A DNA stretch of 40,803 nt, from positions 1 through 40,803 of the forward strand of contig JAOZVS010000135.1 in the NCBI GenBank assembly GCA_025869435.1, written 5' to 3'. Source of the DNA: Zavarzinia sp. (GTDB taxonomy: Bacteria; Pseudomonadota; Alphaproteobacteria; Zavarziniales; Zavarziniaceae). The notes beneath the pieces were generated by a model. It was not told the DNA's origin. It saw nothing but the letters and a program-made list of their open reading frames with translations, and made no database searches. Positions 8,911-40,015 of the stretch are shown here, in pieces. How positions within the stretch are numbered: position 1 is the first letter of the stretch; each line of letters starts with the position of its first letter. The position numbers were made by a program, and so were the translations under genes.

Positions 8911-9046
8911 GCAATCTCTCCCTCTCCGCCCTTCAGGGGGGGAGAGGGCCGGGGTGAGGTGGGTCGAGACGTCGCTCGGGCGTTTCAGGAAAGAGTTTCC
9001 CTCCTCACCCAACCCTCTCCTCCAGGGAGGAGAGGGCTTTGTTTCC
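8911..9046. repeat. Palindromic intergenic repeat, family A, copy 1 (two modules)
   Basis: Two GC-rich hairpins fill the gap between the convergent phosphohexomutase and DUF983 genes. Module one pairs CCCTCTCC (8920-8927) with GGAGAGGG (8941-8948), with the inner CCC/GGG also able to pair, and is followed by CGGGGTGAGG. Module two pairs CCCTCTCCTCC (9013-9023) with GGAGGAGAGGG (9026-9036) and is preceded by GTTTCCCTCCTCACCC. The same modules recur at 27398-27483 and 35181-35236. The position suggests it also serves as a transcript end for both neighbours. Confidence 0.8.
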
Positions 9047-11827: not shown

Positions 11828-11832
11828 GCCGA

Positions 11833-14511: not shown

Positions 14512-14547
14512 TGGGTCTCGGTTCTACAGCGCAGAAGCAAAAAACGG

Positions 14548-24366: not shown

Positions 24367-26079
24367 ATGGCGAAATACGACACGAGTTTCCTCGAGCGCA
24401 TGATCGATCAGGCCCTCGGCCGGATGGAAGCGGATGTCGTCATCCGCAACACGCGCTTCCTTAATGTCTTTACCGCCGAAATCGCCGAGGGCGACATCGC
24501 CATCTGCGGCGACCGCATCGTCGGCACCTACGAAGGCTATCGCGGCAGGATCGAGATCGATGGCCGGGGCCTCATTGCCGTGCCCGGCTTCATCGATACC
24601 CATGTCCATGTCGAATCCTGCCTGATCGCGCCCGGCGAATTCGACCGCTGCGTGCTGCCGCGCGGCACGACGACGGCGATCTGCGACCCGCATGAAATCT
24701 GCAACGTGATGGGCACCCGGGGCCTCGACTATTTCCTCGAGGCGGCGGCGGGCACGGTCATGGACCTGCGGGTCCAGCTTTCGTCCTGCGTGCCGGCGAC
24801 CCATCTCGAGACCTCGGGCGCGACCCTGACCGCCGACGACCTGGTGAAATACAAGGGCCACAAGCATTCGATCGGCCTTGCCGAATTCATGAATGTGCCG
24901 GGCGTCCTCTACAAGGACCCGGACGTCCTCGCCAAGCTCGCGGCCTTCGAGGGTTGCCATATCGACGGCCATTCGCCCATGCTGTCGGGCCGGGATCTGA
25001 ACGCCTATCTTTCCTGCGGCATCCGCAACTGCCACGAGACCACGAGCCTGCCCGAGGCGCGGGAGAAGCTGCGCAAGGGCATGCAGGTGCTGATCCGCGA
25101 AGGCACGGTGTGCAAGGACGTGGACACGCTCTCGCCGATCATCACCGCCGATACCTCGTCCTTCGTCGCCTTCTGCACCGATGATCGCAACCCCCTCGAC
25201 ATTCACGAGGAAGGCCATGTCGATTACCTGATCCGGCGCGCGATCCGGGCCGGCGTGCCCGTCGCCCATGCTTACCGTGCCGCCTCCTGGTCGGCGGCAC
25301 AGGGCTTTGGCCTCCGCGATCGGGGCGTGATCGCGCCCGGGCGCCGGGCCGATATCGTGCTGCTGAACGATCTCGCGGGTTGCGACGTGAACAGCGTGAT
25401 CTCGGCCGGGCGTATCGTGACCCCCGGCCTGTTCGACAGCCGTGTGCTGCCGACACCGATCGGCCTCGATTCCATGAAGCTGGCCCCGGTGGAGGCGGCG
25501 GATTTCATCACCCGTTCCTCCTCGCCGACCGGCGCGGTGATCGGGGTCGAGGCGGGCTCGGTCGTCACCGCTCACCTGACCATGACGCTGCCCTACAAGG
25601 ACGGCATCCGCCTGCCGGATCCGGAAAACGACGTGCTGAAGGTCTGCGTCGTCGCCCGCCACGGCAAGAACCGCAACATCGGCCGGGGCTTCGTCAAGGG
25701 CTTCGGCCTTGTCCGGGGCGCCCTTGCTTCCTCGGTCGGGCACGACAGCCACAATGTCTGTGTCGTCGGCCAGGACGATGCCGAGATGGCCATCGCCGTG
25801 AACCGCCTGATCGAGATCGGCGGCGGTTTCGTCGCCGTGGTGGGGGGCAGGGTGGTGGGCGAACTGGCCCTGCCCATGGCCGGTCTCATCTCGCTGAAGC
25901 CGTTCGAGGGGGTGCGCACCGACCTCGTCGCCCTGCGCAAGGTCGTGCGCGAACTGGGCTGCCCGCTGCCCGAGCCCTTCCTGCAGCTGGCCTTCCTGCC
26001 GCTGCCGGTGATCCCCCATCTGAAGATCACCGACAAGGGCGTCGTCGACGTCGACAGGTTCGAGCTTATCGCGGCCTGA
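24367..26079 (+). CDS. ade: Adenine deaminase
   Basis: A 570-residue amidohydrolase-superfamily enzyme converting adenine to hypoxanthine and ammonia. The first metal site is HVHVESC (His79, His81), typical of the bacterial Ade branch; GTTTAICDPHEICNVMG, HKHSIGLAEFMNVPG, CTDDRNPLDI and the C-terminal SSVGHDSHNVCVVG complete the family pattern. Length fits. A purine-rich GTAGGGAAGG precedes ATG 24367. Its 3' end overlaps that of the convergent guanine deaminase by 14 nt, so the two purine-base deaminases are physically paired; hypoxanthine and xanthine would be their products. Confidence 0.95.
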   Translation: MAKYDTSFLERMIDQALGRMEADVVIRNTRFLNVFTAEIAEGDIAICGDRIVGTYEGYRGRIEIDGRGLIAVPGFIDTHVHVESCLIAPGEFDRCVLPRGTTTAICDPHEICNVMGTRGLDYFLEAAAGTVMDLRVQLSSCVPATHLETSGATLTADDLVKYKGHKHSIGLAEFMNVPGVLYKDPDVLAKLAAFEGCHIDGHSPMLSGRDLNAYLSCGIRNCHETTSLPEAREKLRKGMQVLIREGTVCKDVDTLSPIITADTSSFVAFCTDDRNPLDIHEEGHVDYLIRRAIRAGVPVAHAYRAASWSAAQGFGLRDRGVIAPGRRADIVLLNDLAGCDVNSVISAGRIVTPGLFDSRVLPTPIGLDSMKLAPVEAADFITRSSSPTGAVIGVEAGSVVTAHLTMTLPYKDGIRLPDPENDVLKVCVVARHGKNRNIGRGFVKGFGLVRGALASSVGHDSHNVCVVGQDDAEMAIAVNRLIEIGGGFVAVVGGRVVGELALPMAGLISLKPFEGVRTDLVALRKVVRELGCPLPEPFLQLAFLPLPVIPHLKITDKGVVDVDRFELIAA

Positions 26080-27367
26080 CCGCCCGCTCGCCGGCGACAT
26101 AGGTGGCGGCGACCGAGCGGTCGTCGCCCATGATCATCAGGACGAAGAGTTCCTGCTCGATATCATCCTCGATCGCGGTCATGCGGTGCGCCATGGCCGG
26201 GGTGGCCGCGGCGTCGAGGACGACGACATCGGCTTCCGTCCCGATGTCGAGGGTGCCGATCTCATGGCCGAGGCCCAGCACCTCGGCATTGCCGCGCGTC
26301 ATCATGTGGAAGGCGTCGAGCGGGCGCAGGGTCTGCCGGCGCAATTGCAGCACCTTATAGGCCTCGCCCGCGGTCGCCAGCATCGAATAGGAGGTGCCGC
26401 CGCCGACATCGGTGGCGAGGCCGATCCGCACGCCCCCCGCCGCCAGCCGGTCGCGGTCAAACAGGCCGGAGCCGAGGAACGTGTTCGAGGTCGGGCAGAA
26501 CACGGCGATCGAGCCGCTGTCGGCCAGCATGGCGACCTCGCTGTCGTCGAGATGGATGCTGTGTCCGAAGAGCGAGCGCGGCCCCATCACGCCGAAGTGG
26601 CGATAGACGTCGGCGTAATTCCTCGCCCAGGGGTAGATCTCGCGGACGAAGGCGATTTCCTTGTCGTTCTCCGACAGATGGGTCTGGAGATAGACGCCGT
26701 CGTGCTCGCGCATGAGGGCGGCGCAGGCCTCCATCTGTTCGTCGGTCGAGGTGATGGCGAAGCGCGGGGTGACGGCATAGAGCTGGCGGCCGGTGCCATG
26801 CCAGCGCGCGATCAGGTCCTTCACCGAGTCATAAGACCCCTGGGCCGTGTCCATCAGCCAGGGCGGGGCATTGCGGTCCATCATCGACTTGCCGGCGATC
26901 ATGCGGGTATGGGCGGCCGCGCTCGCCTCGAAGAAGGCATCGGCGGCGGCGGCATGGACGGTGCCATAGACGACGGCGGTGGTCGTGCCGTTGGCCAGCA
27001 GTTCATCGATGAAGAAACGCGCCATGGCCGAGGCGACGTCCGGATCGGCGAGGCGGGATTCCTCGGGGAAGGTATAGCGCTCGAGCCAGTCCATCAGCTG
27101 GGTGCCGAAGGCCGCGATGACCCGGCTTTGCGGGTAATGAATATGCAGGTCGATGAAGCCGGGCAGGATCAGCCTGCCCGAATGATCGTCGACGGGCATG
27201 TCGCCCAGGGTCGGCAGCAGCAGGCTGGCCGGGCCGCGCCGGGTGATGCGGCCGCCCTCCATCACCAGGATGCCGTCGTCGAGGTAGCGCAGGGCGCCCT
27301 TGCCGGCGCTGGCCGGATCGGCCGTGAAGTCGAGCAGGCGGCCGCGGAGGGCGCGGGGATGGGTCAT
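26066..27367 (-). CDS. guaD: Guanine deaminase
   Basis: A 433-residue amidohydrolase converting guanine to xanthine. The zinc-binding motif FIDLHIHYPQS (His75, His77) with its trailing PQ is typical of GuaD; further ligands are in LQTHLSEN, FGHSIHLDDSE and the Asp of ATDVGGGTSYSM. I place the start at ATG 27367 (MTHPRALRGR); upstream in-frame codons read into the family A repeat. It lies 123 nt downstream of the binding-protein gene of the nucleoside importer on the same strand, so it is probably the last gene of that operon, and it is convergent with ade. Confidence 0.94.
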   Translation of the reverse strand: MTHPRALRGRLLDFTADPASAGKGALRYLDDGILVMEGGRITRRGPASLLLPTLGDMPVDDHSGRLILPGFIDLHIHYPQSRVIAAFGTQLMDWLERYTFPEESRLADPDVASAMARFFIDELLANGTTTAVVYGTVHAAAADAFFEASAAAHTRMIAGKSMMDRNAPPWLMDTAQGSYDSVKDLIARWHGTGRQLYAVTPRFAITSTDEQMEACAALMREHDGVYLQTHLSENDKEIAFVREIYPWARNYADVYRHFGVMGPRSLFGHSIHLDDSEVAMLADSGSIAVFCPTSNTFLGSGLFDRDRLAAGGVRIGLATDVGGGTSYSMLATAGEAYKVLQLRRQTLRPLDAFHMMTRGNAEVLGLGHEIGTLDIGTEADVVVLDAAATPAMAHRMTAIEDDIEQELFVLMIMGDDRSVAATYVAGERAVRPR

Positions 27368-27397
27368 GGTTGCTTCTTCTGGAATGGGCTCGGAAAT

Positions 27398-27483
27398 CCC
27401 CCTCACCCCGGCCCTCTCCCCCAAGGGGGCGAGGGAGAACAGCCCTCTCCTCCCGGGAGGAGAGGGTGGGGTGAGGAGGGAAA
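27398..27483. repeat. Palindromic intergenic repeat, family A, copy 2
   Basis: Starts CCCCCTCACCCCGGCCCTC, has CCCCC/GGGGG pairing, then a 24-nt perfect palindrome at 27443-27466 (half-site CCCTCTCCTCCC), and closes with GGGGTGAGGAGGGAAAC. The terminal CCTCACCCC and GGGGTGAGG are also mutually complementary, so the whole element can fold on itself. It fills most of the gap between guaD and the binding-protein gene. Confidence 0.85.
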
Positions 27484-27490
27484 CGCCGTT

Positions 27491-28576
27491 TTACGCCGAA
27501 ACGCCTTCGACGTACCAGTTCATGCCGAGCAACTCGCCGTCCGCCAGCTTGGCGCCATCGGCGACTTTCACTTCACCCTTCTGATCCTTGATCGGGCCGG
27601 TGAAGGGATGGATCGAGCCGTCGATGATGCCGGCCTTGATCGCGTCGGCGGAAGCGCGCAGCTCGGCCGGAACCGCGTCGCCATAGGGGGCGAGGGACAG
27701 ATAGCCTTCCTTCAGGCCGTGCCAGGTGTCGGACGTCTTCCAGGTGCCGTCGAGCACGGCCTGGGCGCGCTCGATGTAATAGGGGCCCCATTCGTCGACG
27801 ATGGCGGTCAGCTGGGCCTTGGGCGCGAAGGACTTCATGTCCGAGGCCTGGCCGACGCCGAGCATGCCGCGCTGTTCGGCGATCTGCAGCGGCGCCGGGC
27901 TGTCGGTGTGCTGGGTGATGATGTCGACGCCCTGATCGATCAGCGCCTTGGCGGCGTCGCCTTCCTTGCCCGGGTCGTACCAGGAATTGATCCAGACCAC
28001 CTTCACCTCGGCATCCGGGCGGATCTTGCGGGCCCAGATCGCGGTGGCGTTGATGCCCATGACGACTTCGGGGATCGGCACCGAGGCGATATAGCCGATC
28101 TTGCCGGTCTTGGTCAGGCTGCCGGCGAGATGGCCGACGACGGCGCGGCCTTCGTAGAAGCGCGAGTTGTAGACCGAGAGATTGGGCGCGGTCTTGAAGC
28201 CGGTGGCATGTTCGAAGAAGACCTTGGGGAAGGCCTTGGCCACCTTCAGCGTCGGCTCCATGTAGCCGAAGGACGAGGTGAAGATCAGCTTGTTGCCGTC
28301 GACGGCGAGCTTGCGGATGACGCGCTCGGCGTCCGGGCCTTCGGCGACATTCTCGACATAGGTCGTCTTCACGAGATCGCCGAATTTGGCCTCGACCGCC
28401 TTGCGGCCGAGATCATGGCCATGGGTCCAGCCGAAATCGCCGACCGGGCCGACATAGATGAAGCCGATCTTCAGCGGGTCGGCCGCGCTCGCCCGTTGCA
28501 GGGGGCCGCTGGCCAGGGTCAGGCCGGCGGCGGCGCTGCCGACGATAAAGGTGCGGCGGTCGATAGGTCTGATCAT
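27491..28576 (-). CDS. BMP-family ABC transporter substrate-binding protein (purine nucleoside type)
   Basis: A 361-residue periplasmic binding protein of the basic membrane protein/PnrA family, whose known members bind purine nucleosides. The N-terminus RRTFIVGSAAAGLTLAS is a twin-arginine-like signal with probable cleavage after ASA (residues 29-31); there is no lipobox Cys, unlike many Gram-positive BMP lipoproteins. The mature start DPLKIGFIYVGPVGDFGWTHGHDLG is characteristic. It comes after ATPase and both permeases in the operon, 45 nt beyond the second permease, and is followed by guaD, which supports a purine ligand. Confidence 0.9.
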   Translation of the reverse strand: MIRPIDRRTFIVGSAAAGLTLASGPLQRASAADPLKIGFIYVGPVGDFGWTHGHDLGRKAVEAKFGDLVKTTYVENVAEGPDAERVIRKLAVDGNKLIFTSSFGYMEPTLKVAKAFPKVFFEHATGFKTAPNLSVYNSRFYEGRAVVGHLAGSLTKTGKIGYIASVPIPEVVMGINATAIWARKIRPDAEVKVVWINSWYDPGKEGDAAKALIDQGVDIITQHTDSPAPLQIAEQRGMLGVGQASDMKSFAPKAQLTAIVDEWGPYYIERAQAVLDGTWKTSDTWHGLKEGYLSLAPYGDAVPAELRASADAIKAGIIDGSIHPFTGPIKDQKGEVKVADGAKLADGELLGMNWYVEGVSA

Positions 28577-28621
28577 CTGGGGCTCCGGTAGAGGGATGCG
28601 GTTTGAGACGACGAGGGGTGA

Positions 28622-29551
28622 TCAGCTTGCCGGGCGGAAGGGTTTGCCGAGGCAGGCCGGTGCATCCAGCCTGCCCCGCCAGGGGCCGGCCGAAATCACG
28701 GTCAGGACGATGATGGTGGCGAGATAGGGCAGCATGTTCATGACCTGCGACGGGATGCCGATGCCGCCCGAACCCTGCAGGTAAAGCTGCAGGATGGTGA
28801 CGCCGCCGAAGATATAGGCGCCGCCCAGCACGCGCCACGGCCGCCACGAGGCGAAGGCGACCAGGGCGAGGGCGATCCAGCCGCGGCCCGCCGTCATCCC
28901 CTCCACCCACATGGGCGTGTAGGAGAGCGAGAGATAGGCCCCGGCGATGCCGCTGCACAATCCGCCGAACATGACGGCGAGATAGCGCACCTTGATCACG
29001 TCATAGCCGATCGAATGGGCCGAGAGATCGGATTCGCCGACCGCCCGCAGGATGAGGCCGGCCCGCGACGATTTCAGGAACCAGGCGACCAGCACGGTCA
29101 TGGCGACCGAGCCATAGACCAGGATGTCATGGCCGAAGAGCAGGGGGCCGATCACCGGCAGGTCGGAAATGCCGGGGATCGACAGCGCGCCCAGCTTCTC
29201 GACCGGGGTGCCGATGTAACTGCTGCCGATCAGCGACGAGACGCCGATGCCGAAGATGGTGAGGGCAAGGCCGGTCGCCACCTGGTTGGCCATCAGCGTC
29301 AAGGTCAGCAGGCCGAAGACGAGGGAGAGGGTGATACCGGCGAAAGCCGCCGCGATGATGCCGAGCAGGGCGCTGCCCGAGCCGACGGTGACCGCGAAGG
29401 CGATGACGGCGCCGACCAGCATCATGCCCTCGACCCCGAGGTTGAGGACGCCCGACTTTTCGGTGACCAGTTCGCCGATCGACGCCAGCAGCAGGGGGGT
29501 CGCCGCCGCGATGACGGTCAGCAGCATGGGCAGGATTGTGTCGATATTCAT
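28622..29551 (-). CDS. BMP-type ABC transporter permease 2 (YufQ/NupQ-like)
   Basis: A 309-residue inner-membrane permease with about eight to ten hydrophobic helices. TEKSGVLNLGVEGMMLVGAV near the N-terminus is the signature shared by this permease class, and RAVGESDLSAHSIGYDV is the cytoplasmic coupling loop that contacts the ATPase. It starts 3 nt after the stop of the first permease. It should pair with that permease as the transmembrane heterodimer of the importer. Confidence 0.9.
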   Translation of the reverse strand: MNIDTILPMLLTVIAAATPLLLASIGELVTEKSGVLNLGVEGMMLVGAVIAFAVTVGSGSALLGIIAAAFAGITLSLVFGLLTLTLMANQVATGLALTIFGIGVSSLIGSSYIGTPVEKLGALSIPGISDLPVIGPLLFGHDILVYGSVAMTVLVAWFLKSSRAGLILRAVGESDLSAHSIGYDVIKVRYLAVMFGGLCSGIAGAYLSLSYTPMWVEGMTAGRGWIALALVAFASWRPWRVLGGAYIFGGVTILQLYLQGSGGIGIPSQVMNMLPYLATIIVLTVISAGPWRGRLDAPACLGKPFRPAS

Positions 29552-29554
29552 GGC

Positions 29555-30631
29555 TCAGGCCCCCTCGACCAGCGGTTTCAGGCGACGTACCCGGTAACGC
29601 ACCAGGAAGTCGGACGCGAGCAGGAAGAACAGCAACATGCCCTGGAACACGCCGGTCACCGCCTGGGGCAGGTTCAGGTTGATCTGGGCATTCTCGCCGC
29701 CCATGTAGGACAGCGCCATCAAAAGCCCCGAGGCGATGATGCCAAGGGGGTGCAGCCGGCCGAGGAAGGCGACGATGATCGCCGTGAAGCCGTAACCGGG
29801 CGAGATATTGGGCACGAGCTGGCCGATCGGCCCCGCGACCTCGAAGGTGCCGGCGAGGCCGGCCAGCGCGCCTGTCAGCATCAGGCAGAACCAGGTGAGC
29901 TTCGTGCGGTCGAAACCGGCATAGCGGGCGGCGGCGGGGGCGGAGCCGAGGGTCCTGATCTGGAAACCGATGATGGTCCTGGTCAGCAGCACCCAGACGG
30001 CGACGGCGGCCAGCAGGGCGACGATGAAGCCGGCATGGAGACGTGTCTCTTCCCAGATGATCGGCAGGATCGCGCTGTCGCTGAACATGCGCGACTGCGG
30101 GAAGTTGAAGCCCATCGGGTCCTTCAGCGGGCCGAAGACGAGAACGGCGAGAAACAGCGTGGCGACATAGGTCAGCATCAGGCTGGTCAGGATTTCGTTC
30201 ACGTTGAATTTCGTCTTCAGGAAGGCGGGAATGGCGGCATAGGCCGCCCCGCCCGCCATGCCGGCGATGGCCATCAGGGGCAGGATGTAGAAACCCGTCT
30301 CCTCCCAGAAGGCGAGGGCGACGGCGCCGCCGCAGACCGCGCCGAGGGTCAGTTGCCCTTCGGCGCCGATGTTCCATATATTGGCGCGGTAACCAAGGGC
30401 AAGGCCGATCGCGATCATGATCAGCGGCGCCGCCTTCACCCCGAGTTCAGAGAGGCCGTATTTGGTCTCGAGCGGCGAGATGAAGAATTCATAGAGCGCC
30501 TCGAAGGGATCGGCCCCGAGCAGCATGAACAGGAAGAAACCGGCGACCACCGTGGCGAAGACGGCGATGAAGGGCGTCATATAGAGCATTCGCGTCGAGA
30601 TCTGTCGGCGCGCTTCGATCTTCAGGGCCAT
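29555..30631 (-). CDS. BMP-type ABC transporter permease 1 (YufP/NupP-like)
   Basis: A 358-residue inner-membrane permease. After an amphipathic N-terminus come about ten hydrophobic helices; YRANIWNIGAEGQLTLGAV is the permease-class signature and RTLGSAPAAARYAGFDRTK the ATPase-contact loop. Longer than its partner, as usual for this pair. Its start lies 1 nt after the ATPase stop, indicating translational coupling. Confidence 0.9.
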   Translation of the reverse strand: MALKIEARRQISTRMLYMTPFIAVFATVVAGFFLFMLLGADPFEALYEFFISPLETKYGLSELGVKAAPLIMIAIGLALGYRANIWNIGAEGQLTLGAVCGGAVALAFWEETGFYILPLMAIAGMAGGAAYAAIPAFLKTKFNVNEILTSLMLTYVATLFLAVLVFGPLKDPMGFNFPQSRMFSDSAILPIIWEETRLHAGFIVALLAAVAVWVLLTRTIIGFQIRTLGSAPAAARYAGFDRTKLTWFCLMLTGALAGLAGTFEVAGPIGQLVPNISPGYGFTAIIVAFLGRLHPLGIIASGLLMALSYMGGENAQINLNLPQAVTGVFQGMLLFFLLASDFLVRYRVRRLKPLVEGA

Positions 30632-30632
30632 G

Positions 30633-32189
30633 TCAGGCGGCTCCCTTTTCCGGCGTGCCGTGAATGCCGCCCATCAGAAGGCCGATCTCCTCGACCGAGA
30701 CGGTCGAGGCCGGCATGGCTTCGGAGACTTGCCCCGCGTTAATGACCGCGATCCGGTCCGACAGGGTCAGCAATTCGTCGAGATCCTGCGAGATGACGAG
30801 GATGGCGCTGCCGGTGCCGGCGAGGTCGACCAGCGCCTGCTGGATCGTGGCGGCGGCGGCGGCGTCGACGCCCCAGGTCGGCTGGGCGACGACGAGGATT
30901 TCCGGCTTCTGCAGGATTTCCCGGCCGACGATGAATTTCTGCAGGTTGCCGCCCGACAGGCTGCCGGCGGCTGTTTCGGTGCCTGGTGTTCGCACGTCGA
31001 AACGCTTGATCACCTCGGCGGCGAAGCCGCGCGCTTTCGCGGTGTCGAGGAAACCGCCCTTCATGAAGCCCATGCGCTTGTGGGCGGACAGCATGGCATT
31101 GTCGGTCAGCGACATGTCGGGCACGGCGCCGTGGCCGTTCCGCTCCTCGGGCACGGTACAAAGGCCGAGCTTGCGCCTCGCGGCGGGGCCGAGGCGACCG
31201 ACGGGCTTGCCGTCGACGATCACGGCGCCCGGCGTCGCCGCCTTGCGCTCCCCGGCGATGGCGGCGAGGAGGTCGCCCTGGCCATTGCCGGCGACCCCGG
31301 CGATGCCCAGGATCTCGCCGCCGCGAAGCGACAGGTTGATGCTTTTCAGCGGCACGCCATGGGCCATTTCCGGCGCCATGGACAGAGCCTTCAACTCCAT
31401 GCGGATGGGGCCGGTGCCCTTGCCCGCCTCGCGTCGCGCGACGCTGCGGAATTCGGCGCCGATCATCAGCTGCGCCATGCTGCGCGCTGTCTCTTCCCGC
31501 GGGTCGCAGGCGGCGACCACCTTGCCGCCGCGCAGGATGGTGGCCTGGTCGCAGAGTTCCTTGATCTCGTTCAGCTTGTGGCTGATGTAGAGGATCGAGC
31601 AGCCCTCGGCCTTCAGCTTGCGCAGGGTCTCGAACAGCTTGCCCACTTCCTGGGGGGTGAGCACCGAGGTCGGCTCGTCCATGACGAGGAGGCGGGGCGA
31701 CTGCAGCAGGCAGCGCACGACCTCGATCCGCTGACGCTCGCCGACCGACAGGGTGTGAACCTCGCGGGCGGGATCGAGCGGCAGGCCATAGGATTCCGAG
31801 ACCTCGCGGATGCGTTTCGCCAGGGCCGCCCGGTCCTTGCCCGGGTCGTCCATGCCGAGGGCGACATTGTCGAGCACGGTCATCGCCTCGAACAGCGAGA
31901 AATGCTGAAACACCATGCCGATGCCGAGGGTCCGCGCCGCATGGGGGCTGGGGACGTCGACTTCCCGCCCGTCCCACACGATCGCGCCGGAATCCGGTTT
32001 CAGGATGCCGTAGATCTGCTTCACCAGCGTGCTTTTGCCCGCGCCATTCTCGCCGAGAAGGGCGTGGATTTCGCCGGGCGCGACCTTGAAGCTGACGTCG
32101 CTATTGGCGATGACGCCTGGAAACGCCTTGGTGATGCCGCTCAATTCCAGGCGCGGATGTTCCTTCACGGCCTTGTCCGATGGCTCCAT
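30633..32189 (-). CDS. BMP-type ABC transporter ATP-binding protein (tandem ABC domains)
   Basis: A 518-residue ATPase with two ABC domains, like ribose and nucleoside importers. Domain one has Walker A GENGAGKST (46-54), signature LSVGERQRIE and Walker B LLVMDEPTS. Domain two is degenerate at its P-loop (GVAGNGQGDLLAAIAGE) but keeps the signature LSGGNLQKFIVGRE, which is normal for the family. I start at Met 32189 (MEPSDKAVKE); the frame extends to 32258 but adds non-conserved residues. First gene of the importer operon; the gap upstream (32190-32392) holds its promoter, back-to-back with that of the aminotransferase operon. Confidence 0.92.
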   Translation of the reverse strand: MEPSDKAVKEHPRLELSGITKAFPGVIANSDVSFKVAPGEIHALLGENGAGKSTLVKQIYGILKPDSGAIVWDGREVDVPSPHAARTLGIGMVFQHFSLFEAMTVLDNVALGMDDPGKDRAALAKRIREVSESYGLPLDPAREVHTLSVGERQRIEVVRCLLQSPRLLVMDEPTSVLTPQEVGKLFETLRKLKAEGCSILYISHKLNEIKELCDQATILRGGKVVAACDPREETARSMAQLMIGAEFRSVARREAGKGTGPIRMELKALSMAPEMAHGVPLKSINLSLRGGEILGIAGVAGNGQGDLLAAIAGERKAATPGAVIVDGKPVGRLGPAARRKLGLCTVPEERNGHGAVPDMSLTDNAMLSAHKRMGFMKGGFLDTAKARGFAAEVIKRFDVRTPGTETAAGSLSGGNLQKFIVGREILQKPEILVVAQPTWGVDAAAAATIQQALVDLAGTGSAILVISQDLDELLTLSDRIAVINAGQVSEAMPASTVSVEEIGLLMGGIHGTPEKGAA

Positions 32190-32226
32190 GCCCAACCCCG
32201 ATCCCCGCCAAACCCTGTAACGCCAG

Positions 32227-32245
32227 TGCAGCATATGGCGCTGCA
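32227..32245. promoter_or_regulatory. Inverted repeat TGCAGC-N7-GCTGCA, candidate operator
   Basis: Six-base arms (32227-32232 and 32240-32245) around ATATGGC lie in the divergent gap between the nucleoside importer (start 32189) and the aminotransferase operon (start 32393). Position and size fit an operator for a dimeric regulator; no regulator gene is adjacent, so the protein is unknown. Confidence 0.35.
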
Positions 32246-32268
32246 TCATGACAACCATTGCCCACGGC

Positions 32269-32392: not shown

Positions 32393-33754
32393 ATGACTCA
32401 AGCCGGCAGCAACCGTCGCCCGTCCAATCTCTTCTACCAGAGCGGCACGCGCCGTCCGCCCGTCGACCGGGCCGAGGGCATCTATATCTGGGATCAATAT
32501 GGCGGGCGCCGGATCGACGGCTCTTCGGGCGCCATGGTGGTCAATATCGGCCATTCCAACCCCTACGTCCTCGACGCCATGAAGCGCCAGATGGACAAAT
32601 GCACCTTCGCCTATCGTCTGCATTACGAGAATGACGCGGCGGAAGACCTGGCGACCAGGCTGTGCGACTTGGCGCCGGCCGAATTCAACCGGGTGTTCTT
32701 CGTCTCCGGCGGCTCGGAAGCCGTGGAATCCTGCCTGAAGCTGGCTCGGCAATATGCCGTCGCGACCGGCCAAGCCTCGCGCTTCAAGGTGATCTCGCGC
32801 TTTCCGTCGTATCACGGCTGTACCCTGGGCGCGCTCGCCATCACCGGCTATGCCGCGCTGGCCGCGCCCTTCGCGCCGATGATGCACGAGATGCCGAAGA
32901 TCCCGGCGCCCACCGCCTATCTCGACCGCGATCAGCTTACGATGGAAGAGCGCGGCATCCGCTACGCCGACTTGCTGGAGGCGGAAATCCGGGCGCAGGG
33001 GCCGGACACCGTGCTCGCCTTCATCATGGAGCCGGTGGGCGGGGCCTCCACGGGTGCCCTGGTCGCGCCCGACAGCTATTACCCGCGGGTGCGCGAGATC
33101 TGCAGCAAATACGGCGTCATCCTGATCCACGACGAGGTGATGAGCGGGGCGGGGCGCACCGGCAAATTCCTCGGCGGCGATCATTGGCCCGGCCGGCCCG
33201 ACCTGATCGCCCTCTCGAAGGGCATCGGCTCCGGCTATTGCCCGCTGGGCGCCATGCTCGCGCCCGACTGGATGGTGCAGCCCGTGCTCGAGAAGGGCGG
33301 CTTCCTGCACGGCTTTACCTATGCCGGCAATCCGCTCGCCTCGGCCGCCGGTCTCGCCGTGCTCGAGGTGATGGAGAAGGAAGACCTGATCGGCAACGCC
33401 GCCCGCATGGGCGAGGTGATCCGCGATAGGCTTGAAGGGCTGAAGCCGCGCTTTCCCTTCATCGGCGATGTGCGCGGCAAGGGCCTCTTGCTGGCGGCCG
33501 AGATGGTCGCCGACCCGGAGACGATGCTACCCCTGCCGGCCCATCTGAACGCCTATCAGCGGATCATCGATATCGCCTATGACAAGGGCCTGATCATCTA
33601 TTCGCGGCGGACCCGCGGCGGCAACGAGGGCGACCATTTCCTGGTCTGCCCGCCGATGATCATCACGCCGGCGCAGGTCGACGAGATGATGGCGATCATC
33701 GAGGACAGCCTCGACACCCTCGCCCGCGAACTCGACCTGCCCAGAGGACTATGA
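32393..33754 (+). CDS. Class III PLP-dependent aminotransferase
   Basis: A 453-residue omega-aminotransferase-type enzyme. SGGSEAVESCLKLARQY (105-121) binds the cofactor phosphate, IHDEVMSG holds the PLP-ring Asp247, and the Schiff-base Lys276 is in LIALSKGIGSGYCPLGAM. Such enzymes move the amino group of omega-amino acids, diamines or beta-amino acids to pyruvate or 2-oxoglutarate; the substrate here is not readable from sequence. GAGGTG lies 11 nt before ATG 32393. It is first in an operon with BKACE, a GNAT acetyltransferase and an M20 hydrolase, suggesting catabolism of an amino-containing keto acid. Confidence 0.9.
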   Translation: MTQAGSNRRPSNLFYQSGTRRPPVDRAEGIYIWDQYGGRRIDGSSGAMVVNIGHSNPYVLDAMKRQMDKCTFAYRLHYENDAAEDLATRLCDLAPAEFNRVFFVSGGSEAVESCLKLARQYAVATGQASRFKVISRFPSYHGCTLGALAITGYAALAAPFAPMMHEMPKIPAPTAYLDRDQLTMEERGIRYADLLEAEIRAQGPDTVLAFIMEPVGGASTGALVAPDSYYPRVREICSKYGVILIHDEVMSGAGRTGKFLGGDHWPGRPDLIALSKGIGSGYCPLGAMLAPDWMVQPVLEKGGFLHGFTYAGNPLASAAGLAVLEVMEKEDLIGNAARMGEVIRDRLEGLKPRFPFIGDVRGKGLLLAAEMVADPETMLPLPAHLNAYQRIIDIAYDKGLIIYSRRTRGGNEGDHFLVCPPMIITPAQVDEMMAIIEDSLDTLARELDLPRGL

Positions 33755-33756
33755 TC

Positions 33757-34689
33757 ATGGCTGCCCGCAAGGTCGTCATTTCCTGCGCCGTCACCGGCTC
33801 GATCCACACCCCGACCATGAGCGACTATCTGCCCTATACGCCGGACGATATCGCGGCGCAGGCGATCGAGGCGGCGGAGGCCGGGGCCGCCATCCTGCAT
33901 CTTCACGCCCGCGACCCCAAGGATGGACGGCCGAGCCCGGATCCGGACGTTTTCATGCAGTTCCTGCCGCGCATCCGCCAGGCCTGCGATGCGGTCGTCA
34001 ACATAACGACCGGCGGATCGTCTGCGATGACCCTGGACGAGCGGCTGGCGGCACCCCTCCGCGCCAGCCCCGAGATGTGCTCCCTCAACATGGGCTCGAT
34101 GAATTTCGGCCTGTTCCCGGCGGTCGAGCGTTACACCGAGTGGAAGTTCGACTGGGAGCCGAAGCTGCTGGAGAACACCCGCGACACGATCTTCAAGAAT
34201 ACCTTCAAGGATATCGAAGGCATTCTCGACAGGCTGGGCAAGGGCTGCGGCGCCAAGTTCGAGTTCGAGTGTTACGACGTCGGCCATCTCTACACCCTCG
34301 CCCATTTCCGCGACCGGGGGCTCGTCAAGGCGCCGCTGTTCATCCAGTTCGTGCTCGGCGTCCTCGGCGGCATCGGGCCGGACCCGGAAAACCTCATCCA
34401 CATGAAGCGGATCGCCGACAAGCTGTTCGGCGACGATTACCAGTTCTCGGTCCTCGGCGCAGGCCGGCACCAGATGCCGCTGGTCACCATGAGCGCGATC
34501 ATGGGCGGCCATGTCCGCGTCGGCCTCGAGGACAGCATCACGCTGGGCCGCGGCCGGCTGGCGAAATCGAACGCGGAACAGGTCGCGCGCATCCGCGACA
34601 TCCTGGAAAGCCTGTCGCTGGAAATCGCGACCCCGGACGACGCCCGCGCCATCCTCGGCCTCAAGGGCGGGGATCGGGTGGCGTTTTGA
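33757..34689 (+). CDS. Beta-keto acid cleavage enzyme (BKACE, DUF849 family)
   Basis: A 310-residue TIM-barrel zinc enzyme. Family members, first known as 3-keto-5-aminohexanoate cleavage enzyme, condense a beta-keto acid with acetyl-CoA and split it to acetoacetate plus a new CoA ester. Zinc ligands His48 and His50 (LHLHARD) and the catalytic-site Glu258 of RVGLEDS are present; TTGGSS, SLNMGSMNFG and FECYDVGHL line the pocket. I choose ATG 33757 since AGAGGA lies 8 nt upstream; ATG 33751, which overlaps the previous stop, has only 2 nt spacing. Different BKACEs use different substrates, so no specific acid is assigned. Confidence 0.9.
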   Translation: MAARKVVISCAVTGSIHTPTMSDYLPYTPDDIAAQAIEAAEAGAAILHLHARDPKDGRPSPDPDVFMQFLPRIRQACDAVVNITTGGSSAMTLDERLAAPLRASPEMCSLNMGSMNFGLFPAVERYTEWKFDWEPKLLENTRDTIFKNTFKDIEGILDRLGKGCGAKFEFECYDVGHLYTLAHFRDRGLVKAPLFIQFVLGVLGGIGPDPENLIHMKRIADKLFGDDYQFSVLGAGRHQMPLVTMSAIMGGHVRVGLEDSITLGRGRLAKSNAEQVARIRDILESLSLEIATPDDARAILGLKGGDRVAF

Positions 34690-35162
34690 TCCGCCTCGCC
34701 ACCATCGCGGATGCCGAGGCGATCCATGCCATGATCCTCGGCATCGGTGCCGTGCTCGGTCAGGCGCATAAGATCGCCGGCACGGTTGAGGATTTGCGGC
34801 GCTGGGGCTTCGGTCCCGACCCCGCGTTCGAGGCGCTGATCGCGGAGGAGGGGGGGCGGCCGGTCGGCCTCTGCCTCTATTTCCGCTCGTTCTCGACCTG
34901 GCGCGGGCGGCCCGGGGCCTATGTTCAGGACCTGTATGTCGATCCCGCCTGCCGGGGCGGCGGCTGGGGCCGGCGCCTGCTCGCGGCCTGCGCCGCGCGC
35001 GCGGCGGAAAAGGGCGGCGCCTATATCCGCCTGTCGGTCGATGCCGCCAATATCGCGGCGCAAGGTTTCTATGCCCGCGCCGGCTTCCGCCATGCCGCCG
35101 ACGATCTCATTCACCAGATCGACGGCGAGGATTTCCGGCGGCTGGCGGGGGAAGTTGTTTGA
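34686..35162 (+). CDS. GNAT N-acetyltransferase, SSAT-like
   Basis: A 158-residue acetyl-CoA-dependent N-acetyltransferase. The GNAT fold shows as IRLATIADAEAI (strand 1), LYFRSFSTWRGRPGAYVQDLYV (strands 4-5), the CoA pyrophosphate loop CRGGGWGRRLL, and FYARAGF (motif B). The FSTWRGR...LYVDP arrangement resembles spermidine/spermine acetyltransferases, so a diamine or amino-group acceptor is my inference. The only reasonable start is TTG 34686, which overlaps the BKACE stop (TTGA), implying translational coupling; ATG codons further in would remove strand 1. Confidence 0.82.
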   Translation: MIRLATIADAEAIHAMILGIGAVLGQAHKIAGTVEDLRRWGFGPDPAFEALIAEEGGRPVGLCLYFRSFSTWRGRPGAYVQDLYVDPACRGGGWGRRLLAACAARAAEKGGAYIRLSVDAANIAAQGFYARAGFRHAADDLIHQIDGEDFRRLAGEVV

Positions 35163-35180
35163 AATGGCGGAGCCTTCCCA

Positions 35181-35236
35181 CCTCACCCCGGCCCTCTCCC
35201 CCCAGAGGGCGGAGAGGGTTGGGTGAGGAGGGAAAC
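35181..35236. repeat. Palindromic intergenic repeat, family A, copy 3
   Basis: A single-module copy: outer arms CCTCACCC (35181-35188) / GGGTGAGG (35221-35228), inner arms CCCTCTCC (35192-35199) / GGAGAGGG (35211-35218), closing with AGGGAAAC. It occupies the gap between the acetyltransferase and the M20 hydrolase gene on the same strand. Confidence 0.85.
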
Positions 35237-35259
35237 ACCGGCCCTGGGAGTGACCGAAA

Positions 35260-36546
35260 ATGAGCCTCGATCCCGCGCTTTCCGCCGACATCAAGAATGC
35301 CGTCGCCAGTCTCGCCGATGAAGGCACGGTCCTTCTGGCCGATCTGGTGCGCGAGGGCAGCGTGCTGGGCGAGGAGGCGGGCGCGCAAGCCCTGATGGCC
35401 GAGCGGTTCGCCGACATGGGTCTCGACGTCGACCGGTTCGAGATCGATCTGGCCGCGATCCGGGACCTGCCGGGTTTCTCGCCGCCGGTGATCGATGTCT
35501 ACAAGGGGCGGGAGAATGTCGTCGGGCGTCATGTGCCGAAGGCGGCGACGGGCAAGTCGCTGATCTTGAACGGCCATATCGACGTGGTGCCGACCGGGCC
35601 GGAAGCGCTCTGGACCACGCCGCCCTTCGTTCCGAGGATAGAGGACGGCAAGCTCTACGGTCGGGGCGCGGGCGACATGAAGGCGGGCATCGCCGCCTAT
35701 TGCATGGCCTTCGATGCCCTGGCGCGTCTTGGCCTGCAGCCGGCGGCGCCGGTCTATCTGCAATCGGTGATCGAGGAAGAATGCACGGGCAATGGCGCCC
35801 TCGCCTGTCTCGCCCGGGGCTACCGGGCCGATGCCGCCATCATCCCCGAGCCCTTCGACCAGAGCCTGCTGATCGCGCAATTGGGCGTGATGTGGCTGAG
35901 CGTCGATCTGGTCGGCAAGCCGGCCCATGTGCTGGACACATCGGCCGGGACCAATGCGATCGAGGCGGTCTATGCCCTGTTCGATGCCCTGCGCGGGGTG
36001 GAGGCGGCCTGGAACGCGCCCGGTTTCCGCCATGCCTGCTACCGCGATCACAAGCATCCGGTGAATTTCAACCTGGGCCGGATTTCGGGCGGCGAATGGC
36101 CGTCGTCTGTGCCTTGCGCCGCTTCGATCGACGTCCGTGTCGGCTTCTATCCCGGCATGACGATTTCAGGCGTGAAGCAGGCGCTGGAGGCGGCGATCGC
36201 GGCGGCGGTGGCGGAGCGACCCCCCTTGCGCGGGGCGCAGGTGAAGATCCGCTACAAGGGCTTTCAGGCCGAGGGCTGCGCCATCGACCCGCAGGACCCG
36301 CTGCTCGTCGGCCTTCGCCGCGCCCATGAGGCGGTGAGCGGAAAACCGATCATCGAACTCGCCTCCACCGCGACGACCGATGCCCGTTTCTTCATCCTTT
36401 ACGGTGATACGCCGGCGACCTGCTACGGCCCCAGGGCCGGCAGCATCCACGGTATCGACGAATGGGTCGAACTCTCGACCATGATCGAGGTCGCCCAGGT
36501 CCTCGCGCTGTTCATGGCGGATTGGTGCGGGGTGGAGAGACGCTGA
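35260..36546 (+). CDS. M20 family metallohydrolase (ArgE/DapE-like deacylase)
   Basis: A 428-residue dizinc amidohydrolase. Metal and catalytic residues are in NGHIDVVP (His106, Asp108), GRGAGDMKAG (bridging Asp139), IEEECTGN (general base Glu172 and ligand Glu173) and GSIHGIDE (His about 397); the dimerisation lid lies between. ArgE/DapE relatives remove acetyl or succinyl groups from amino compounds; exact substrate unknown. It is the last gene of the aminotransferase-BKACE-acetyltransferase run, separated from it by a repeat. Its last 35 nt overlap the 3' end of the convergent LysR gene. Confidence 0.88.
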   Translation: MSLDPALSADIKNAVASLADEGTVLLADLVREGSVLGEEAGAQALMAERFADMGLDVDRFEIDLAAIRDLPGFSPPVIDVYKGRENVVGRHVPKAATGKSLILNGHIDVVPTGPEALWTTPPFVPRIEDGKLYGRGAGDMKAGIAAYCMAFDALARLGLQPAAPVYLQSVIEEECTGNGALACLARGYRADAAIIPEPFDQSLLIAQLGVMWLSVDLVGKPAHVLDTSAGTNAIEAVYALFDALRGVEAAWNAPGFRHACYRDHKHPVNFNLGRISGGEWPSSVPCAASIDVRVGFYPGMTISGVKQALEAAIAAAVAERPPLRGAQVKIRYKGFQAEGCAIDPQDPLLVGLRRAHEAVSGKPIIELASTATTDARFFILYGDTPATCYGPRAGSIHGIDEWVELSTMIEVAQVLALFMADWCGVERR

Positions 36547-37432
36547 GCAGCCAGTCGCGGAAGGCGATCAGGGCGGGCAGGCCACGTTTCGCTTCCGGAT
36601 AGGCGAAGAAATAGCCCTGCTGGCTGGTGACCCTGGCGTCGAACAGCACCGACAATTCGCCCCTTCCGATCTCGTCGGCGACCAGCACCTGCGGGGCGAG
36701 GGCGACGCCGAGGCCGGCGACCGCCGCCTGCAGCACTTGCGCGAATTGCTCGAAGGAAATGCGCGGCTGGCCGGGCTGGGCTTCGATGCCCTGGCTCTCG
36801 AACCATTCGCCCCAGGCCTTGGGCCGCGTCGCCTGGACGAGGAGCGTGGCCCGGGCGAGGTCCTGCGGTCGCCGCCAGCCCTCGCTGGCGATCAGGGCGG
36901 GGGCGGCGACGGGCACCAACACCTCGCCCATCAGGGGATGCAGCACGGCGCCCGGCCAATGGGCGTCGCCGAAATGGATGGCGGCATCGAGGCCCTCGCG
37001 CTCGAAATCGAAGGGGCGGAGGCGGGTCGAAAAACGGATCGTCACCTCCGGATGCTGGCGAAAGAAATCGGGCAGGCGAGGGATCAGCCAGCGGGTGCCG
37101 ATGGTCGGCAGGATCGCGAGGTCGAGGGTGCCGCCCTTGCCCTTGAAGGCGATGGTCTGCGCCGTGGCCGAGGCGAAGCGGGCGAGCGTGTCGCGCATGG
37201 ACTCGGCATAGAAACGGCCGGCCTCGGTCAGATGCACGCGCTGGCGCCGCCGCTCGAACAGCGCGAGGCCAAGGCGCGCCTCGAGGTCCTTCACCTGGCG
37301 GCTGACCGCGCCTTGCGTCAGGTTCAGCTCCGTCGCCGCCTTGGTGAAACTGCCCAGCCGCGCCGCCGCCTCGAAGGCGACGAGACTGCCGAGTGGCGGG
37401 ATCAGGCGGCGGCTGAAACTGTCGGTCATCAT
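36512..37432 (-). CDS. LysR-type transcriptional regulator of the glutarate genes (GcdR-like)
   Basis: A 306-residue LysR regulator. The N-terminal winged helix-turn-helix is LVAFEAAARLGSFTKAATELNLTQGAVSRQVKDLE (about 17-51); the remainder is the two-lobed effector domain (LAILPTIGTRWLIPRLP, AAIHFGDAHWPG, QAAVAGLGVALAPQ), of the GcvA-like subgroup. It is transcribed away from glutaryl-CoA dehydrogenase and a CoA-transferase, the same arrangement as gcdR-gcdHG in Pseudomonas, so glutarate or glutaryl-CoA is the presumed inducer. Two palindromes in the divergent gap (37557-37592) are its likely operator. ATG 37432 or 37429 are equally possible starts. Confidence 0.88.
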   Translation of the reverse strand: MMTDSFSRRLIPPLGSLVAFEAAARLGSFTKAATELNLTQGAVSRQVKDLEARLGLALFERRRQRVHLTEAGRFYAESMRDTLARFASATAQTIAFKGKGGTLDLAILPTIGTRWLIPRLPDFFRQHPEVTIRFSTRLRPFDFEREGLDAAIHFGDAHWPGAVLHPLMGEVLVPVAAPALIASEGWRRPQDLARATLLVQATRPKAWGEWFESQGIEAQPGQPRISFEQFAQVLQAAVAGLGVALAPQVLVADEIGRGELSVLFDARVTSQQGYFFAYPEAKRGLPALIAFRDWLLSVSPPRTNPP

Positions 37433-37655: not shown

Positions 37656-38846
37656 ATGTCCTCGTCGCGCGCCATTTTCGCCTGGGAAGATCCGTTCCTT
37701 CTGGAAGAGCAACTGACCGAGGACGAGCGCCTGGTGCGCGACAGCGTTCGCGCCTATGCCCAGGAAAAGCTGATGCCGCGCGTGCTCTCGGCCTTCCGGG
37801 ACGAGCGTTTCGACCGCGAGATCATGAGCGAGATGGGGGAACTCGGTTTCCTCGGCTCGACCCTGCCGGAGGAATACGGCGGCTCGGCCGCATCCTATGT
37901 CGCCTATGGTCTCGCCGCGCGGGAAGTGGAGCGGGTCGATTCCGGCTATCGCTCGGCGATGAGCGTGCAGTCGTCCCTCGTCATGCACCCCATTTACGCC
38001 TATGGCAGCGAGATTCAGCGCAAGAAATATCTGCCGAAACTCGCCACCGGCGAATGGGTCGGCTGCTTCGGCCTGACCGAGCCCGATCACGGCTCCGATC
38101 CCGGCGGGATGCGGACGCGGGCGAAGAAAGTCGATGGCGGTTACATCCTGCATGGCTCCAAGATGTGGATCACCAATGCGCCGATCGCCGATCTCGCCGT
38201 CGTCTGGGCCAAGTCGGAGGCCCATGACAATGCGATCAAGGGTTTCGTGGTCGAGCGCGGCTTCGCCGGCTTCTCCACCCCGGCGATCGAGAACAAGCTC
38301 TCGCTCCGCGCCTCGATCACCGGCGAGATCGTGCTCGAAGACGTCTTCGTGCCGGACGAGAACCTGCTGCCCAACGCCTCCGGTCTCGGCGGGCCGTTCG
38401 GCTGTCTGAACCGGGCGCGTTACGGCATTTCCTGGGGCGCGCTGGGCGCCGCCGAATTCTGCTGGCACGCGGCCCGGCAATATACACTGGACCGCAAGCA
38501 GTTCGGCCGCCCGCTGGCCCAGACCCAGCTCGTCCAGAAGAAGCTCGCTGACATGCAGACCGAAATCACCCTCGGGCTTCAGGCCTCGCTCCGCGTCGGG
38601 CGCCTGATGGACGAGGGCAAGGTCCTGCCGGAAGCGATCTCGCTGGTGAAGCGCAACAATTGCGGTAAGTCGCTGGATATCGCCCGCCAGTCCCGCGACA
38701 TGCATGGCGGCAATGGTATCTCGGGCGAATTCCATGTCATCCGTCACCTGCTGAACCTCGAAACCGTCAATACCTACGAGGGCACGCATGACGTTCACGC
38801 CCTGATCCTCGGCCGGGCGCAGACGGGCCTTCAGGCGTTCTTCTGA
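37656..38846 (+). CDS. gcdH: Glutaryl-CoA dehydrogenase
   Basis: A 396-residue FAD enzyme of the acyl-CoA dehydrogenase family that oxidises and decarboxylates glutaryl-CoA to crotonyl-CoA and CO2 in lysine, tryptophan and glutarate breakdown. The GCDH-specific signatures are unmistakable: [17 protein letters not shown] with Arg99, which binds the gamma-carboxylate, and [17 protein letters not shown] with the catalytic base Glu375. [13 protein letters not shown] and [11 protein letters not shown] bind FAD. ATG 37656 has GGAGAGAG upstream; the open frame extending to 37479 is not coding. The CoA-transferase gene follows after 2 nt. Confidence 0.96.
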
Positions 38847-38848
38847 TC

Positions 38849-40015
38849 ATGTCGGACGCCCCCCTCGCCGGACTGAAGGTCGTCGAACTGGCCCGCATCC
38901 TGGCCGGTCCCTGGGCCGGCCAGATCTTGGCCGACCTCGGCGCCGACGTGATCAAGATCGAAAAACCGGGGGAGGGGGACGACACGCGGGGCTGGGGTCC
39001 GCCCTTCATACCGGCGGCCGACGGCTCCAGCCTCGGCGCCGCCTATTTCCATTCCTGTAACCGGGGGAAACGCTCGGTCGCCGTTGATATCGCGACGCCG
39101 GAAGGTCAGGTGGCGGTGCGCGCGCTGGTCGCCGAAGCCGACGTGCTGATCGAGAATTTCAAGGTCGGCGGCCTTGCCCGCTATGGGCTCGACTATGCCA
39201 GCCTCGCCGCGATCAATCCCCGCCTCGTCTATTGCTCGATCACCGGTTTCGGCCAGGATGGGCCCTATGCCAAGCGCGCCGGCTACGACCTGATGATCCA
39301 GGGCCTCGGCGGCATCATGAGCCTGACCGGCGAGAGGGAAGGCGAGCCGCAGCGGGTGGGCGTGCCCCTCGTCGATCTCTTCACCGGGGTCTATTCCGTC
39401 GTCGCGATCCAGGCCGCGCTGGCGGAGCGTCAACGCTCCGGCCTTGGCCAGCATATCGACATGGCCCTGCTGGATACCCAGGTGGCGATCCTCGGCAATC
39501 ATGCCCATGCTTACCTCACGACCGGCACGGTGCCGACCCGCCAGGGCAATGCCCATCCCAGCATCGTGCCCTATCAGGCCTTTTCCGCTTCGGACGGCCA
39601 CCTGATCCTCGCCGTCGGCAACGACGGGCAATTCCGCAAGGCGGTGGAAGCCCTTGGCCTGCCCGAACTCGCGACCGATCCCCGCTTCAGCACCAATGCC
39701 GACCGGGTGCGCAACCGCGCCGAGCTGATCCCCATGCTCGCCGCCCGGATGGCGGGGATGAAGCGCGACGATCTCCTCGCCGCTTTCGAGAAGGTCGGCG
39801 TGCCGGCGGGGCCGATCAACACGGTGGCGCAGGTTTTCGCCGATCCGCAGGTCCAGCACCGTCACATGCAGCTGGAACTCGATTTCGGAGGGGCGCCGGT
39901 GCCGGGCGTGCGCACGCCCATCCGCTTCTCGCGCAGCCCCCTCGTGCTCGATCGGCCGGCGCCGTCGCTTGGCCAGCACACGGACGAGGTTCTCGGCCCG
40001 GCCTCGGAGGGGTGA
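38849..40015 (+). CDS. Class III CoA-transferase (CaiB/BaiF), probable succinyl-CoA:glutarate CoA-transferase
   Basis: A 388-residue family III CoA-transferase. The start LAGLKVVELARILAGPWAGQILADLGADVIKIEKPG and the covalent-intermediate Asp176 (GVPLVDLFTG) define the family; GVPAGPINTVAQVFADPQV is a conserved C-terminal block. Family members move CoA between carboxylates via an aspartyl-CoA thioester. Because it is 2 nt behind gcdH and under a LysR gene, the sensible role is activation of free glutarate to glutaryl-CoA (equivalent to human SUGCT and Pseudomonas GcdG). Substrate is inferred from context. Confidence 0.88.
   Translation: MSDAPLAGLKVVELARILAGPWAGQILADLGADVIKIEKPGEGDDTRGWGPPFIPAADGSSLGAAYFHSCNRGKRSVAVDIATPEGQVAVRALVAEADVLIENFKVGGLARYGLDYASLAAINPRLVYCSITGFGQDGPYAKRAGYDLMIQGLGGIMSLTGEREGEPQRVGVPLVDLFTGVYSVVAIQAALAERQRSGLGQHIDMALLDTQVAILGNHAHAYLTTGTVPTRQGNAHPSIVPYQAFSASDGHLILAVGNDGQFRKAVEALGLPELATDPRFSTNADRVRNRAELIPMLAARMAGMKRDDLLAAFEKVGVPAGPINTVAQVFADPQVQHRHMQLELDFGGAPVPGVRTPIRFSRSPLVLDRPAPSLGQHTDEVLGPASEG

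Follow-up and report, generated by a model that had tools for sequence, protein, structure and literature searches.

A conserved gene module around a Zavarzinia aminotransferase, with a probable role in acetyl-protected beta-amino acid catabolism

What might an aminotransferase, a beta-keto acid cleavage enzyme (BKACE), an N-acetyltransferase and an N-deacylase accomplish together when their genes lie side by side? The question is posed by four neighbouring genes, all on the plus strand, in a 40,803-nucleotide stretch of DNA from Zavarzinia sp. (contig JAOZVS010000135.1; hereafter the window), which belongs to a fragmented genome of 171 contigs that is 75.5% complete. A first-pass annotation had named the four families, and Pfam and NCBIfam agree with it. 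The run comprises a class III aminotransferase (AT; 32393..33754; PF00202, Aminotran_3, 308 bits), a BKACE (33751..34689; PF05853, 369 bits, matched over the full-length profile, 1-274 of 274), a GNAT acetyltransferase with a TTG start (34686..35162; Acetyltransf_1, 65 bits) and an M20 deacylase of the ArgE/DapE type (35260..36546; Peptidase_M20, 116 bits). It is argued here, on comparative grounds, that the four genes probably form an acetyl-protected pathway for a beta-amino acid, with imported beta-lysine (3,6-diaminohexanoate) as the likeliest substrate. Acetyl-protected beta-amino acid catabolism as such is proposed with considerable confidence; beta-lysine, or its acetyl form, is the favoured substrate with rather less assurance.

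The grouping of the genes extends well beyond the window. A class-wide sample of 289 genomes was examined, in which AT matches were taken at an E value of 1e-120 or better and at most five candidates were scored per genome. Twenty-four genomes contain an AT match, 18 of them at an identity of at least 60%, including the window genome and three congeners. BKACE adjoins the AT in 14 of these 18, which argues that the four-gene grouping is not due to chance. Three of the remaining four (G222, G117 and G194) carry a CoA-transferase pair, and the last (G015) has a gene of the histone deacetylase (HDAC) type with no BKACE nearby. In the six class genomes whose AT is 50-56% identical, no BKACE adjoins it.

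A larger set was assembled from 80 named loci (the best 80 of 536 relatives) and 20 fetched stretches. Three of these 100 with an AT below 60% identity, one duplicate genome (L028 = L076) and 15 loci with short flanks were removed, leaving 81 with both flanks. Because the gene caller had overlooked some genes, modules were counted by tblastn with our own reference proteins within 9 kb of the AT, a procedure which divergent GNATs or thiolases may escape. The AT is partnered by BKACE at 54 loci and by a CoA-transferase A/B pair at 17, by both at none and by neither at 10. The deacylase is of the HDAC type only at 53 loci and M20 only at 20, with neither at seven; both occur solely at L092, where the HDAC homologue (34% identity) lies on the opposite strand. 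GNAT was found at 59 of the 81. BKACE together with M20, the combination seen in the window, occurs at four loci, three from Zavarzinia and one from Microvirga, in which the M20 gene lies upstream. Among the loci sampled, then, the complete run in this form is a local feature of Zavarzinia, whilst the module itself is broad. Conservation of the four families together, the check that the first-pass annotation had put forward, is borne out for the widespread AT-BKACE pairing but not for the complete set, given the counts for GNAT and for BKACE with M20.

The partners of the AT have also been exchanged. Two ways of cleaving a free beta-keto acid are known, one using a CoA-transferase plus a thiolase and the other BKACE alone. 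A thiolase (query from Rhodobacteraceae) lies near 13 of the 17 CoA-transferase loci, as against none of the 54 BKACE loci, a contrast with a Fisher p of 4e-11 if the kinship of the loci is ignored. On an AT tree of 82 rows the BKACE and CoA-transferase labels need four changes, and the HDAC-type and M20 labels six, in each case forced by supported branches, so that module replacement has occurred more than once. The exchange of BKACE and CoA-transferase plus thiolase on the AT lineage indicates that the AT very probably acts on a beta-amino acid and yields a beta-keto acid. The exchange of deacylases between unrelated folds, M20 and HDAC-type, taken together with the GNAT, argues for an N-acyl intermediate; the HDAC-type protein of L036, the only one searched, is closest to acetylpolyamine amidohydrolases. 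Both swaps fit the earlier suggestion of a catabolic unit which makes and cleaves a beta-keto acid whilst an amine is acetyl-protected. In an AT tree that includes 13 Zavarzinia paralogues, 24 cluster ATs group together (support 99/97), apart from those paralogues. Furthermore, a small hotdog-like thioesterase is present near 13 of the 54 BKACE loci versus none of the 17 CoA-transferase loci, and the gene close to the cluster of Shinella (L164) bears the annotation 'thioesterase family protein'.

From these families we infer a substrate, an order of steps and a set of products. The GNAT, a putative side-chain N-acetyltransferase, would acetylate the distal amine of beta-lysine. The AT, a putative N6-acetyl-beta-lysine:oxo-acid transaminase, would then convert the 3-amino group to a ketone, yielding the 3-oxo acid 6-acetamido-3-oxohexanoate, from which BKACE would form acetoacetate and 4-acetamidobutyryl-CoA at the expense of acetyl-CoA. 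Removal of the acetyl group by M20, a putative 4-acetamidobutyryl-(CoA) deacetylase, would give 4-aminobutyrate, for a net conversion of beta-lysine to acetoacetate and 4-aminobutyrate. Uncapped 6-amino-3-oxohexanoate would close to a five-membered imine and 4-aminobutyryl-CoA to a lactam, and the acetyl cap would be explained by the prevention of these two ring closures. Enzymes likely to consume the proposed products are encoded in all four Zavarzinia genomes: each has a succinate semialdehyde dehydrogenase and a gene of the scoA/pcaI type over cut-off, and in G000, G169 and G266 a gene for the dehydrogenase adjoins one for a class III AT. Such a route would have a precedent. The Barker laboratory, from the 1970s to 1981, reportedly described an L-beta-lysine pathway in Pseudomonas from purified enzymes (EC 2.3.1.264, 2.6.1.65 and 3.5.1.51), and its four activities would match the four families of the window one to one. 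We know of no gene assignment for its transaminase or deacetylase, and literature searches on the pathway turned up no relevant paper. The label 'uncharacterised', given to the operon earlier, calls for caution, as the chemistry appears to match this old pathway.

Several features of the individual enzymes bear on these assignments. K276 of the AT, presumed to be its pyridoxal phosphate (PLP) lysine, is unchanged across 13 aligned rows; the best NCBIfam matches of this protein, PRK07483 (425.7 bits) and PRK06917 (408.6 bits), both fall short of their cut-offs. BKACE passes NF053538, a model which bears the name of an enzyme with a neutral substrate, 3,5-dioxohexanoate:acetyl-CoA acetone transferase (537 bits against a cut-off of 430), which is a label only, but stays under the cut-offs of the Kce model (NF052387; 246 against 382 bits) and the 3-oxoadipate model (172 against 350 bits), a pattern consistent with a substrate that is capped and neutral. 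The best solved chain for the GNAT is 12jc, a 'thialysine acetyltransferase' (3.7e-23), followed by 2fe7, a 'probable N-acetyltransferase' (1.5e-22), and 2bei, 'diamine acetyltransferase 2' (2.1e-12). M20 matches PRK06837 at 523 bits (cut-off 376) and, as its second family, PRK06915 at 309 bits (cut-off 428); its residues H106, D108, D139, E173, E174, E197 and H397 are unchanged in five rows, including Bacillus. Kce of lysine fermentation shares the family and reaction type of the window BKACE, with the difference that its substrate is a free amine. Another relative, at 383 bits, is BKACE15 of Paracoccus denitrificans (8rio), although two solved chains named only as uncharacterised, 3e02 (436 bits) and 3e49 (420 bits), are nearer. 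BKACE15 is described as taking neutral C5-C6 beta-keto acids, with aromatic compounds as the suggested context (PMC11961710). Among the BKACE groups of Bastard, as related in PMC4922564, G1 is characterised as hydrophobic and non-charged polar and G5 as positively charged.

The genes of the run are tightly packed at its start, AT overlapping BKACE, and BKACE overlapping GNAT, by 4 bases each. The overlaps or tiny gaps first described throughout do not extend to the interval between GNAT and M20, which measures 97 bp (35163..35259) and holds a GC-rich inverted repeat of a dispersed, REP-like kind (motif CCCTCTCC...GGAGAGGG); M20 may thus be regulated separately. The motif recurs in the window at 8920-8941, 9013-9029 and 27443-27459, and the REP-like regions as a whole span 8920-9036, 27412-27466 and, within the GNAT-M20 gap, 35180-35225.

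Beta-lysine in particular is suggested by likeness to the Bacillus ablA operon, by the thialysine-type match of the GNAT and by importers before the AT. Binding proteins resembling those for lysine, arginine and ornithine occur near the AT at 31 of the 81 loci, and PotD-like ones at nine; importers of these types lie directly before the AT in many relatives. On a plasmid of Bacillus velezensis (L160), a single run encodes an AT, CoA-transferase A and B, a 'peptidase' (M20), ablB ('putative beta-lysine N-acetyltransferase') and ablA ('lysine 2,3-aminomutase'). This ablA (kamA)-ablB operon, which we take to be of the yodPQRST type, resembles the window in its AT, M20, N-acetyltransferase and beta-keto acid module, the two ATs being 36% and the two M20 proteins 34% identical. 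The Bacillus AT belongs to PRK06917 (767 bits) and its M20 to PRK06915 (742 bits), both over cut-off, and these are the second-best families, below cut-off, of the window AT and M20. By contrast, Bacillus has a lysine 2,3-aminomutase, AblB and a CoA-transferase pair, whereas the window has BKACE, a GNAT which is not AblB and no aminomutase that could be found. The Bacillus order AT-A-B-M20 is repeated in Rhodobacteraceae M382 (L165), where a thiolase comes next and the operon goes on into genes for an amidohydrolase and an alanine racemase (13168-15443). A 2019 survey of Bacillus PLP enzymes treats the physiological function of KamA as still undetermined and puts forward, as speculation, a part for YodT in biotin metabolism (PMC6522883).

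A number of results weigh against beta-lysine, or against a single pathway at all of these loci. No match to LAM_C (lysine 2,3-aminomutase) was found in the window genome, at its 75.5% completeness, or in three Zavarzinia congeners that are 99-100% complete. The 18 genomes with a close AT contain no strong match, only weak ones in G015 and G080 (24 and 28 bits), and of the 25 class genomes with LAM_C at 58 bits or more, G187 alone is among the 24 with an AT, there 56% identical. Neither KamA nor AblB lies near the AT at any of the 100 loci. AblB (TIGR03827) is over cut-off in none of 398 phylum genomes, 63 of which give weak matches (best 92 of 205 bits), so that no genome bridging AblB and BKACE was found; the window genome has no AblB match, and AblB is absent from the 13 families matched by the window GNAT. 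Synthesis of beta-lysine from lysine was dropped as a proposal, there being no aminomutase link in the window genome or the class. A beta-lysine compound must consequently be imported, and next to the window operon no importer dedicated to it can be seen. GNAT was not found at 22 of the 81 loci, a cleavage module at 10 or a deacylase at seven; where GNAT was not found, the cell may take up the compound in acetylated form, or the gene may lie elsewhere or be too divergent for the queries. An oxidase most like the D-arginine dehydrogenase DauA (one protein searched), present at nine of the 81 loci and at six of these with PotD, fits no proposed step; that it handles the other enantiomer is speculation. 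At L200 (3905-10165) a PotABCD-type transporter, BKACE and a DauA-like oxidase form one run in which no AT or GNAT was found, with an HDAC-fold gene (34%) further on, possibly a swap of oxidase for aminotransferase. The sample is uneven, one AT-tree clade of 30 rows consisting of Mesorhizobium and its kin, and the Bacillus AT, of low identity to that of the window, sits on a long branch whose place in the tree is unsure.

Could the same acetyl-protected chemistry serve a different beta-amino acid that also has a distal amine? Beta-homolysine, a beta-arginine derivative, a beta-lysyl conjugate or imported N6-acetyl-beta-lysine, the GNAT then being accessory, would suit the lack of a strong aminomutase match in the close-AT genomes, the loci at which GNAT was not found and the amidohydrolase-like DMFA2_C gene near the AT at 40 of the 81 loci, which hints at conjugates. 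This is regarded as unlikely, albeit not negligibly so, since the Bacillus operon connects the set of AT, CoA-transferase and M20 with beta-lysine and a thialysine-type GNAT suits a side chain of lysine size. Far less probable is polyamine catabolism, in which the GNAT would acetylate a polyamine, the deacylase would reverse this and the AT would take a terminal amine. PotD-like proteins at nine loci, HDAC-type deacylases at 54 and the likeness of the GNAT to diamine acetyltransferase 2 speak for it, but a terminal amine would yield an aldehyde, which is no substrate for BKACE or for CoA-transferase plus thiolase, and no aldehyde dehydrogenase is found among the four genes. Of the C5-C6 amino acid or polyamine substrate envisaged in the first-pass annotation, a C6 diamino acid is the best guess and the polyamine is disfavoured.

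That annotation also took the genes downstream to continue the pathway through glutarate. They are indeed present in the window, 1.1 kb on, as an acyl-CoA dehydrogenase of the glutaryl-CoA type (37656-38846; 227 of the 470 bits of the glutarate-specific NCBIfam cut-off) and a class III CoA-transferase (38849-40015; 583 of 750 bits), and L026, the nearest relative, has them after the operon as well. However, a LysR gene on the minus strand (36512-37432) intervenes, neither gene was found beside the operon in the congeners L027 and L028/L076, and homologues lie near the AT at two of the 81 loci for the dehydrogenase (L026 and L143, the latter a 37% homologue) and at one for the CoA-transferase. 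On these grounds the glutarate link was rejected, and a route to glutarate is given very little credence. It is just as improbable that BKACE acts on a non-nitrogen beta-keto acid and has no link with its neighbours. BKACE relatives of up to 74% identity do sit away from an AT in other genomes; yet the genes overlap by 4 bases, BKACE never occurs alongside the CoA-transferase pair, and only two label changes are needed on a tree that combines 27 AT-linked copies with 20 chosen unlinked ones, of which supported branches force one. That tree places L217, an unlinked copy, next to a linked group, and it does not show the AT-linked copies as a single clade.

Other genes and loci may be recorded alongside the acetyl-protected pathway favoured here. 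An apparent purine salvage block (24367-32258) precedes the operon, with an amidohydrolase resembling adenine deaminase by eye, a guanine deaminase (TIGR02967, 529 bits), a BMP-type binding protein, two permeases and an ABC ATPase; its guanine deaminase and ABC genes (26066-32258) are divergent from the operon, and are kept in L026 and not found in L027 or L028/L076. Between BKACE and GNAT, L026 (G169) has a 231-residue open reading frame (11148-11843) with no Pfam match, whose start looks by eye like a signal peptide. The DMFA2_C gene is dimethylformamidase-like (for example L031, 10786-12567) and a creatininase-like gene, identified by eye, occurs at five loci; both may release an amino acid from an amide. 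Five Mesorhizobium loci (L101, L108, L119, L123 and L145) have AT, GNAT and an HDAC-type gene and no BKACE within 9 kb, and at L043-L045, which belong to the ATs of 50-56% identity, a 7-kb reach around the AT showed no cleavage, GNAT or deacylase module on its strand. The record L091, titled Bacillus subtilis SK6B4, bears an alphaproteobacterial-type cluster whose AT groups with those of a Mesorhizobium metagenome-assembled genome and Leucobacter, and is likely mislabelled or contaminated. Plasmid ATs at 39-47% identity are too distant to weigh either way: no partner of this kind was seen in Deinococcus (L161) or in the unannotated Vibrio locus (L162). In Rhodococcus (L163) M20 adjoins the AT and an acetyl-CoA acetyltransferase lies 7 kb on, whilst in Phaeobacter (L167) there is a gene with a thiolase domain, and a pca block 5 kb further along includes one annotated BKACE.

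The operon is real and is conserved as a module, and its reading is specific enough to be tested. The cluster is not described among the titles and abstract openings listed by literature searches (20 of up to 4,649 papers), whose coverage leaves out most subscription journals, so its novelty is unproven. A wider picture can be offered tentatively, as somewhat short of an even chance: that Alphaproteobacteria commonly scavenge beta-lysine and its conjugates, derived from antibiotics, osmolytes or modified elongation factor, that this is the first gene set for an acetyl-protected aerobic route, and that BKACE and CoA-transferase/thiolase, and M20 and HDAC-fold deacylases, have been swapped repeatedly within it. 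If the proposed pathway is true, it would supply genes for N6-acetyl-beta-lysine transaminase and 4-acetamidobutyryl-CoA deacetylase, two enzymes that to our knowledge have no sequence, and would propose what the ablA/kamA operon of Bacillus does. It would also provide the neutral-substrate branch of BKACE with a physiological substrate, and the RefSeq names '3-keto-5-aminohexanoate cleavage protein' and 'histone deacetylase family protein' could become specific in many genomes.

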